Assembly: GCF_007744515.1 (NCBI RefSeq)
Contig: NZ_CP036268.1
Location: forward strand, 1,961,712 to 2,025,711
DNA: 64,000 nt
Origin: Stratiformator vulcanicus
GTDB taxonomy: Bacteria; Planctomycetota; Planctomycetia; Planctomycetales; Planctomycetaceae
Direction: 5' to 3'
The notes below the pieces were generated by a model. That model was not told the DNA's origin. It searched no databases and was given only the letters and a program-made list of their open reading frames with translations. The first letter of the stretch is position 1. The number at the start of each line of letters is the position of its first letter. Below, piece after piece: positions 49,707-55,219 of the stretch. The translations under genes were made by a program, and so were the position numbers.

Positions 49707-52090
49707 ATGGAGTCGAACTGGGCGAAGAATATCGGTCGCGATCTCGCCGCGAGTGTCGTGGTCTTCCTGGTAGCGCTGCCATTGTGTCTGGGTATCGCAT
49801 TGGCCTCTCGCGCGCCGGGGATGGAAGAGGGCCTCAACGTCCCTTTGTTTTCCGGCCTACTCGCGGGCATCGTGGGCGGCATTGTCGTCGGTTCGCTCAG
49901 CGGCTCGCACACCAGCGTCTCCGGCCCGGCGGCCGGCTTGACGGCGGTTGTGGCGATGCAGATCGAGGCGCTCGGGTCCTATCAGGCGTTCGTGGCCGCG
50001 GTCGCTGTGGCGGGATTCATTCAGATATTACTCGGCGTACTTCGGGCGGGTTTCATCTCCGCATTTTTCCCGTCGAGCGTAATTAAGGGGCTGCTTGCGG
50101 CGATCGGGGTCATCCTGATCTTGAAGCAAATCCCGCACGTGCTAGGGCGCGACTCTGATCCCGAGGGCGACATGTCGTTTTCGCAGCCCGATCACCACAA
50201 TACTTTTACGGAATTGTGGGCCGTCGTGACGGATGTGACAAGCGGGCACGTGGTCTTGGGGGCGGCAATCATCGGTGTCGCTTCGCTCGTATTCCTCGTG
50301 CTGAGCGATCGATTCGCCTTCTTTAAAAAAGTACCCGTCCTCGCGCCCGTGACGGTAGTCGCTTTCGGATTTATTATGCGGTGGCTGTTTAACACATCCG
50401 GCGGCCCGCTACTGGCAGTTCAAGGCGAGCACCTCGTCAATGTTCCCGTCGCTCAGGGGCTTCAAAACTTCGACCAATTCATCGTGTGGCCGGATTGGTC
50501 CCACTATTTAAACCCGCAGTTTTATATTGCCGCCGTGACCGTCGCGATTGTCGCGTCCTTGGAGACGCTGCTTAACTTGGAAGCGGTCGACAAACTCGAC
50601 CCGAAACAGCGGAACTCGCCGCCCGACCGGGAACTGTTTGCGCAAGGCTGCGGGAACGTTGTCTCCGGCATGTTCGGCGGTCTCCCGATCACGTCGGTCA
50701 TTGTCCGCAGTTCAGTCAATGTGCGGTCCGGCGCCGTGACCAAGCTTTCGGCGATCGCACACGGATTTATTCTGGTCGGGTTCTGCTTTTTCGGGCCGCA
50801 GGTACTCAATTCCATTCCGCTATCGTGTCTGGCCGCGATTCTTCTCCACACCGGTTTTAAGCTCGCCAATCCGGAGCTATTTAAGCAGATGTGGCGGGAG
50901 GGTTGGAATCAGTTCCTCCCGTTCATCATTACTGTGACCGCGATCGTGCTGACCGACCTGCTGATCGGGATCATTATTGGTCTCGTCTTTGCGATCGGTT
51001 TCATCTTGAAGAGCAATCTCCGCCGACCGCTGCACCTGATTCGAGAGAATCATGTCAGCGGCGAAGTGCTGCGAATCGAACTCGCCAATCAGGTCAGCTT
51101 TCTCAATCGGGCGGCGTTGTTGCGGGTGCTCGAGAACGTGCCGGCAGGCAGCCGGGTGCTGCTCGACGCTCGTTCGACTGACTACATTGACCCGGACGTT
51201 CTCGACTTAATAAGTGACTTTAAGAAGGAGACGGCCCCGGCGAAGAACATCTCGGTCAGCCGGATCGGCTTTAAGGATCGCTATGTTGACGGGGACGAGA
51301 TTGAGTTCATTGATTTCTCGACGCGGGAGCTGCAGGAGAATATGCGGCCTGAGCACGTGTTGCAGGTGCTCAAGGACGGCAACGAGCGATTCCGCACCGG
51401 CCACAGTTTGACAAGAAACTACACGAAGGCGATTCATGAAACTGCTGAGGGGCAATTTCCGCTCGCTTGCGTCGTGAGCTGCATCGATTCGCGGAATCCG
51501 ACCGAAATCATTTTTGACCTCGGCGTCGGCGACGTCTTCACCGTGCGGATCGCCGGCAATGTCGTCAAAGAGAAGGTGATGGCGAGCATTGAATACGCCT
51601 GCGCCGTCGCGGGGGCGAAGCTCGTCGTGATTCTCGGGCACACCCGTTGCGGCGCCGTCACGGCGGCCGTCAACCTCGCCGAGCAGAACGCAGACCCCGC
51701 CGAGGCAACCGGCTGCGAGCACCTCGCGGCGGTCGTCAACGAAATTCAGAAGTCGATCGAACCGGCGCGACAATTAAATGAAACCCGTCAGGCGCTAAAG
51801 CAAACCCGTTGGGCACCGAAATCGTCATCTGTCGAACCGGAGGATGACTTCCCTGATATCGTCGCCCGGGCGAATGTCGATCGCATGATGCATGTCTTAC
51901 TGGAGCAAAGTCACACGATGGCCAAGCTGTGCGACGAAGGCAAAATCGGCGTGGTCGGCGGAATGTACGATGTCCGAACCGGGGGTGTTGAGTTCTTCGA
52001 GAGCGCCCCCAGCAGCCTGCTCGAGCAATCTCCTCCCGAAGTGCAGCCGCCGGAGCGGGAGCAAACCGTGGTGCAGTCGAACGGGCAGTG

Positions 52091-52091
<1 letters not shown>
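49707..52091 (+). CDS. SulP anion transporter fused to STAS and beta-carbonic anhydrase
   Basis: 794 residues. Residues 1-440 are a SulP-type transporter (LAASVVVFLVALPLCLGIAL; GSLSGSHTSVSGPAAGLTAV; ITSVIVRSSVNVRSGAVTK). About 455-560 form a STAS-like domain (SRVLLDARSTDYIDPDVLDL). About 575-770 are beta-carbonic anhydrase, with Zn ligands C592 (CIDSR, with D594 and R596), H645 and C648 (GHTRCGA). Fusions of SulP with carbonic anhydrase are known and are thought to move bicarbonate while converting it to CO2. All active-site residues seem intact. The stop overlaps the next gene's ATG by one base. Confidence 0.95.
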
Positions 52092-53284
<1,193 letters not shown>

Positions 53285-53340: not shown

Positions 53341-54561
53341 ATGAAAAACGAACGATCGAAACGTCCCGAGTATCTGAAAGCCGGACTGGAACGGCTCGTG
53401 GACCGTATGTCGGTCACGCCCGACGTCTTTGATCCTGGGCTTGAAAGCATCATCTCTGCCGAGACCCGGATCTCTGAAGTCGAAGAGCTGTATCTGTACC
53501 ACGGGTATCCGATTGCCGATTTGGCCCGTGAGTCTTCGTTTCTGGAGACCGCCTACCTGTTGATCGCGGGGGAGCTGCCGAGCCTCGACTTCCTGGCTGA
53601 CTTTCAGACGTGGCTGTTCGGTGACGTTGCCGCTGGACCGATCGTCGATGCCCTGCTGCACTCGGCGAATTCGAGCACGCGTTCGGATTCGTTTCTCGGC
53701 AACCTCATTGCGTCAGCGGGTGCGGTCCTCGAATTCGACAGTCAGGTCGCCGACGATGCGTTCATGGGAGAGTTCGCCCGTCTGATGGCGCTGAGCACGC
53801 TTGGCCTCTCGACGATTTACACGCCCCAGGCATCGGTCGACTTCAGCGAATCTGGCAGCGATGCCGTCGGTGATGGCCTCGACAGTGATTTCAGTTTTGC
53901 GGGCAATTTGTTGCTGCGTTTGACTTCCAAGCGACCGACCGACGAGCAGGAGCGGGCATTTGATGCTGCGCTGAGCGTGCTCGCCGATCAGGGAATCGAT
54001 GCCTCGACGTTCGCCGCCCGCGCGGTCATCAGCGGCGGTGGAGATTTTTGCGGGGCGTTGGCGGCGGCCGCCGCGACCTGCAGCGGATCGGTTCATGCGG
54101 GACCGCGATTTGATATCGTCGCGCCGTTGTTTGAGCTCAGCTCGGTCGACGAGGTCAGCACTTTCCTCGACGGTCGCGCTTCAGATTTTCGACCGATCGA
54201 CGGTTTCGACAGCCGCTCGATGTCGACCGACGATTCGCGGCTCGAACTGCTCCGCGAAATGTGCGACGTGATGGCTTCGGAAACCGGGCGACGCGACTTC
54301 GAGCGGATCGCCCGCTGTTTCGAAGAAGCGGTTCGTGGTCAGTTCGGACTTCAGCCGACGATCTATTGGCACCTGTCGCGGTTGTTCGAGTATTTGGGCA
54401 TTCCGCAAAACGCCTATCGCGCTGTGACGATCGTCGCCCGATTGCCCGGTTGGGCGGCCCACGCATGCGAGCAACGCACGCACAATCAACTGATCCGTCC
54501 GCGCGGTCGCTATGTCGGACCGGAGCGGCGAAAACTGCCCGACTTCAGCACACGCGGCTGA
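53341..54561 (+). CDS. Citrate-synthase-fold protein lacking two catalytic residues
   Basis: 406 residues, AAGGAAGG upstream. The citrate-synthase pattern is clear: HGYPIADLARESSFLETAYL, GSVHAGPRFD (H252, at the place of E. coli GltA H264), and the ending VARLPGWAAHACEQ and RPRGRYVGPER. However, the segment GFGHRVYK of the family is GFDSRSMS, so the second catalytic His is Ser291; and NVDFYSG is QPTIYWH, so the catalytic Asp is Thr340. Normal citrate synthesis is unlikely. It may bind an acyl-CoA or regulate. It is followed by frr, 97 bp away. Confidence 0.85.
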   Translation: MKNERSKRPEYLKAGLERLVDRMSVTPDVFDPGLESIISAETRISEVEELYLYHGYPIADLARESSFLETAYLLIAGELPSLDFLADFQTWLFGDVAAGPIVDALLHSANSSTRSDSFLGNLIASAGAVLEFDSQVADDAFMGEFARLMALSTLGLSTIYTPQASVDFSESGSDAVGDGLDSDFSFAGNLLLRLTSKRPTDEQERAFDAALSVLADQGIDASTFAARAVISGGGDFCGALAAAAATCSGSVHAGPRFDIVAPLFELSSVDEVSTFLDGRASDFRPIDGFDSRSMSTDDSRLELLREMCDVMASETGRRDFERIARCFEEAVRGQFGLQPTIYWHLSRLFEYLGIPQNAYRAVTIVARLPGWAAHACEQRTHNQLIRPRGRYVGPERRKLPDFSTRG

Positions 54562-54658: not shown

Positions 54659-55219
54659 ATGGACGCCGACGAAATTTTGCTCGACGCCGAAGAACGGATG
54701 AGCAAGGCCGCGGACCTTTATCACGATCAACTTCAGGGAATGCGGACGGGACGGGCCACGCCTGCCTTGGTTGAGAGCGTCCGGGTCGAAATGTACGGCT
54801 CCATGATGCCGCTCAAGCAGTGCGCCACGATCAGCGTTCCCGAGCCGCAGCAGATCGTCGTGCGTCCTTACGACGCAACACAGATCGGCGCGATCTCCAA
54901 AGCGATCCAGGCCAGCGATGTCGGCCTCGCCCCCAACTCCGACGGCCGGCTGATCCGCCTGAACGTGCCGCCGCTGTCGACCGAACGCCGCAAGCAAATC
55001 GTCTCCCGTGTGAAAGAACTGGCCGAAGAGGCGCGAGTGTCGATTCGCAACATTCGGCGCGATGCCAATAAGCACGCCGATACCGCTGAGAAGGAAAAGA
55101 CGTTCGGCGAAGACGATCGCGATTCCGTGAAAGACCAAGTCCAGGAATTCACCAAGAAGTACGAAGGCAAAGTCAACGACCTCGCTTCTCACAAAGAGAC
55201 CGAAGTCATGAACGAGTAG
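54659..55219 (+). CDS. frr: Ribosome recycling factor
   Basis: 186 residues from ATG 54659, with AAAAGGAGAC upstream. Splits the post-termination ribosome with EF-G. Motifs are MSKAADLYHDQLQGMRTGRA, YGSMMPLKQCATISVPEPQQ, LIRLNVPPLSTERRKQIV and RRDANKHADTAEKEKT. Full length. The common pyrH neighbour is absent. Confidence 0.95.
   Translation: MDADEILLDAEERMSKAADLYHDQLQGMRTGRATPALVESVRVEMYGSMMPLKQCATISVPEPQQIVVRPYDATQIGAISKAIQASDVGLAPNSDGRLIRLNVPPLSTERRKQIVSRVKELAEEARVSIRNIRRDANKHADTAEKEKTFGEDDRDSVKDQVQEFTKKYEGKVNDLASHKETEVMNE

Follow-up and report, generated by a model that had tools for sequence, protein, structure and literature searches.

The si-type citrate synthase (EC 2.3.3.16/2.3.3.1; PF00285), in the type II form of bacteria, provides one comparison for a citrate-synthase-like gene found in the window, by which we mean the whole 64,000-nucleotide stretch of DNA analysed. 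The window protein has the same full-length fold, is 28-37% identical to intact homologues and shares with the known enzyme the oxaloacetate arginines and the GW.AH..EQ and RPR motifs. It differs in having S291, Y342 and Q217 in its active site and in the absence of the HRVYK loop. The citrate synthases of the sister planctomycete family f2 belong, according to the tree, to the same paralogue as the window protein, here called P2, and P339, W343 and R347 are common to both; in f2, however, the set of catalytic residues is complete and P2 is the only citrate synthase in all four genomes checked. Citryl-CoA lyase is alike in the large domain of the citrate synthase fold, but the window encodes a full-length citrate synthase that scores far below the cut-offs for the lyase, and this assignment was rejected (PRK06224 models of NCBIfam, best score 68.3 bits versus 212; curated cut-offs 193-409).

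Pseudoenzymes in general, that is, paralogues that have lost catalysis and serve as regulators or scaffolds, are a known kind and offer a further likeness, since there too the fold is kept, residues are lost, purifying selection acts and an active paralogue is present. A maintained dead citrate synthase seems to be unreported in the open-licence literature that was searched, in which no account of such a family was found.

The window protein and its active site

The reading frame is uninterrupted (Table 1), and Pfam profile PF00285 (Citrate_synt) covers it over its full length (profile positions 1-357 of 357, 189 bits, E 2e-55). The top PDB match of the protein extends over residues 29-395 (E 5e-36), and the GC content of the gene at the three codon positions (0.64/0.48/0.70) is similar to that of adjoining genes. 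The score with TIGR01800 (2-methylcitrate synthase/citrate synthase II) was 182.7 bits, below the curated cut-off of 421.3. A structure predicted from an alignment with one relative had a pLDDT of 36, too poor for use.

The gene has a glycosyltransferase (group 1) gene upstream (52088-53284) and frr downstream (54659-55219), an arrangement absent from all relatives examined. No neighbourhood common to the window gene and its relatives was found near the gene, and none was shared among 20 P2-type loci, hence gene order gives no pointer to a partner. Two candidates were rejected: a neighbour cluster at 14 loci is the antisense frame of the citrate synthase gene itself and not a real neighbour, and an 836-aa protein (L068) is not a fusion, as the citrate synthase frame there simply continues without a stop on the antisense strand of a phosphomannomutase-like gene. 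Elsewhere in the window, a single open reading frame on the + strand (49707-52091) combines a SulP sulfate/bicarbonate-type permease (PF00916) with a beta carbonic anhydrase domain (PF00484).

Table 1. Coordinates of the citrate-synthase-like gene and of its active-site positions within the window.
Feature	Position	Strand	Basis
Citrate-synthase-like CDS, P2 paralogue, catalytic residues eroded, 406 aa	53341..54561	+	Open frame (ATG at 53341, stop at 54561), PF00285, codon-position GC
Q217 (CAG), oxaloacetate-binding His position	53989..53991	+	Alignment with AEH of solved/intact enzymes
H252 (CAT), first catalytic His, kept; HAGP versus HGGA	54094..54096	+	Alignment
S291 (AGC), second catalytic His position; GFDSR versus GFGHR	54211..54213	+	Alignment
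R300, oxaloacetate-binding Arg, kept	54238..54240	+	Identical in 169/169 homologues, including eroded ones
T340, Asn position two residues ahead of Asp	54358-54360	+	Alignment
Y342 (TAT), catalytic Asp position; PTIYW versus PNLDW	54364..54366	+	Alignment
R367, second oxaloacetate-binding Arg, kept	54439..54441	+	Identical in 168/169 homologues
R386, RPR motif, kept here, gone in many eroded relatives	54496..54498	+	Alignment

Residue positions were set by alignment to solved citrate synthases and ~170 homologues. The His-His-Asp triad is incomplete in the window protein, in which H252 is present and Ser and Tyr occupy the other two positions. With the oxaloacetate-binding His of the AEHxxNAST motif, replaced by Gln, three of the four His/Asp positions of the active site are altered. 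A first-pass annotation of this DNA had already recognized that H252 is retained and that Ser291 replaces the His of GFGHR, and the alignment agrees on both. It had also proposed that the catalytic Asp became Thr340: the Asp is indeed absent, but the position was misassigned, since QPTIYWH of the window protein corresponds to YPNVDFYS, or to PNLDWPSAR in the nearest family. The change at Q217 is a further loss that the annotation did not contain. An intact His or Asp placed elsewhere in the protein was looked for by alignment and none was found.

The oxaloacetate-binding arginines R300, R367 and R386 are all present, as are the segments WAAHACEQ and RPRGRYVGP, whose retention had been noted correctly. 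We take R300 and R367 to be the equivalents of pig R329 and R401, the oxaloacetate-carboxylate arginines. The equivalent of R386 in known citrate synthases is an Arg contributed to the site of the partner subunit. The loop next to the active site reads SRSMS versus HRVYK. The CoA-binding role suggested in the first-pass annotation is not borne out, as this loop is lost, the oxaloacetate arginines are kept instead and no positive evidence for CoA binding emerged. The window protein is predicted to be poor at citrate synthesis, and efficient synthesis is very unlikely because of the biochemistry of the known enzyme.

Distribution and erosion of the P2 paralogue

The first-pass reading called for a second, intact citrate synthase in the same genome, and one is present. 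The gene G000:C1:2283890-2284939 (L001), the sole other PF00285 gene on the single 5.23-Mb contig, scores 428 bits versus 189 for the window gene and encodes every catalytic residue. The genome also has two aconitase-family genes, as expected with a working cycle. The motif around the second catalytic His of L001 and its closest orthologues is GFGHA rather than GFGHR, and no catalytic residue is lost.

A tree was built from 94 homologues of 59 relatives, with the active-site columns excluded for the clade test described below. The window protein groups with L004 (99-100% bootstrap) within the P2 paralogues of its own family, on a very long branch of 1.85-1.96 changes per site. Judged by its general character, this would be a planctomycete family, probably Pirellulaceae. 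In the first sample of the family, 27 of 37 genera have a P2 gene, and at least one triad residue is lost in 13 of those 27. Another citrate synthase with all catalytic residues intact was found in every eroded-P2 genome checked (14/14: the window's genome, twelve of the first sample and one of g58). One member of the family, G012, has a P2 protein with all residues as its only citrate synthase. The citrate synthase obtained from a Phycisphaerae MAG (n=1) is intact.

The replacements vary among lineages. Written in the order oxaloacetate His/His/His/Asp, the pattern is Q/H/S/Y in the window protein, Y/H/S or A or N/E in g58, F/P/P/L in g33, where no catalytic His remains, L/W/A/E in g18, D/L/R/E and D/F/P/D in g15, and H/S/H/V in g25. 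The H252 position is replaced in most eroded lineages (by P, W, L, F, S, A, Q or R). Forcing the strongly eroded proteins into one clade was rejected by the AU test (p-AU 4e-4, for a grouping picked after the tree was seen). An earlier one-clade test (p-AU 1e-78) was discarded because its grouping split g58 by the erosion trait itself. Unordered parsimony requires that the state of the triad changed five times or more; if losses are irreversible, about seven or more can be read from the tree, and their exact number is unsure because the branches are long. Comparison of these proteins indicates that the catalytic residues of P2 have been lost several separate times and in ways that differ by lineage. 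A clade with the same changes, as envisaged in the first-pass annotation, is not supported: relatives with comparable losses exist, but neither the same changes nor one origin unites them.

Three other P2 proteins have one triad change each, His to Asp in L009 (G034), Asp to Glu in L167 (G120) and Asp to Ile in L088 (G001), and these are apparently early erosion stages. The P2 copies of g34 (L020, L135-L138, L140, L142, L143, L145-L147, L149-L152) have all catalytic residues, and GFWHR and HGGP replace GFGHR and HGGA throughout the genus, for which an altered substrate rather than lost activity is possible.

Selection on the eroded proteins and the residues they retain

Pairwise dN/dS values between species were calculated by the Nei-Gojobori method. 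The eroded P2 genes of g58 had a median dN/dS of 0.054 (55 pairs, range 0.015-0.089) and those of g33 had values of 0.019-0.042 (3 pairs); the median for the intact citrate synthase of g58 was 0.037 (10 pairs). The catalytic-His column of the eroded g58 proteins (A/G/H/N/S) ranks in the top five of the alignment for variability, and the same column is invariant in the intact citrate synthase of g58. Because this column is variable in g58 while dN/dS is low, catalysis has been freed from selection and the protein has not. Frames are open in nearly all eroded relatives, and among the relatives' matches listed a few have an internal stop, e.g. G126, which is eroded. The window gene still has an open frame after ~1.9 amino-acid changes per site, and from this and its eroded relatives we infer that it is itself under purifying selection. 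The first-pass view that the protein is under selection and not a pseudogene is thus upheld, directly for the close eroded relatives (dN/dS ~0.04-0.05) and indirectly for the window gene.

Erosion has spared particular parts of the protein. Intact enzymes have 36 near-invariant positions, 13 of which are conserved in every one of the 13 eroded representatives (G55, L61, L73, P80, R227, G288, R300, E328, R367, G370, W371, A373 and E377). Retention averages 71% across the 36 positions and is 8-23% at the catalytic positions. None of the 13 eroded representatives has lost any of the P2-specific residues A86, A324, P339, W343 and R347. These retained residues suggest that the fold matters and that, possibly, the dicarboxylate site matters too. 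The conservation of R300 and R367 carries little statistical weight because 13 of the 36 near-invariant positions are kept anyway, and the kept arginines could be structural rather than ligand-binding.

Explanations for the eroded P2 proteins

The features of a pseudoenzyme are found here in the citrate synthase fold, with catalytic residues lost, purifying selection acting (on the relatives, and by extension on the window gene) and an active paralogue present. The reading that we prefer, to which we give roughly an even chance, is that a displaced housekeeping citrate synthase has turned into a pseudoenzyme several times over and has a non-catalytic role, tentatively as a regulatory or partner subunit. 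P2 is the sole citrate synthase of the sister-family genomes checked, and in the window's family the presence of another, intact enzyme makes its catalysis dispensable. Catalytic His and Asp residues of P2 were then lost on several separate occasions, including in the lineage of the window. Strong purifying selection, seen in the close eroded relatives and presumed for the window, persists, which argues for a function without need for citrate synthase chemistry. Such a function may use the kept fold and, more tentatively, the dicarboxylate-binding arginines; its most likely form would be a dimer that serves as a regulator or partner subunit and senses a ligand like oxaloacetate or citrate. A bolder form of this proposal, which we consider somewhat unlikely, is that the ancestral P2 enzyme, before its repeated and independent conversion to a dicarboxylate-sensing regulator, already served a further role outside catalysis, which selection has preserved in every eroded lineage.

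Alternatively, the eroded protein could be a non-catalytic partner in mixed dimers with the intact citrate synthase, tuning or stabilizing it. Citrate synthase is an obligate dimer, an intact citrate synthase always accompanies eroded P2, and the residues of the fold are kept, all of which would fit. However, the window protein and L001 are just ~30% identical, their genes are unlinked, and the Arg that reaches the partner's site is gone in many eroded relatives, and we regard mixed dimers as unlikely.

An enzyme that catalyzes a different reaction in the old pocket, through H252 and the kept arginines, is doubtful, and we rate it as quite unlikely. H252, R300 and R367 are present in the window protein, one or two catalytic residues remain in several eroded lines, and the relatives are under purifying selection. 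Against this, H252 is lost in most eroded lineages and position 291 differs even among g58 species. A new reaction had been raised in the first-pass annotation; shared new chemistry is unlikely because no residue is common to the eroded proteins at any of the four positions, and lineage-specific new chemistry is possible.

A weak but still active citrate or 2-methylcitrate synthase is highly improbable. Single substitutions in known citrate synthases leave a small residual activity, and one catalytic His and the binding arginines persist in the window protein, but here three of the four His/Asp positions differ at the same time, and the g33 proteins, which lack every catalytic residue, are equally constrained. 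Least probable of all is that the gene is a pseudogene in decay, left over from a second, redundant citrate synthase. The existence of a redundant enzyme, the length of the window branch and the internal stops in a few relatives' matches would allow this, but the 406 codons left open along that branch, the normal codon-position composition and the low dN/dS and nearly always open frames of the eroded relatives contradict it.

If eroded P2 proteins are pseudoenzymes, as we favour, genomes of this family that are annotated with two 'gltA' genes may have a single working citrate synthase. Citrate synthase belongs to core metabolism. With several independent losses, the intact, half-eroded and fully eroded copies of one gene within one family amount to a natural experiment, in which one can ask what part of an enzyme persists without its chemistry and whether a second role was hidden in a housekeeping enzyme.
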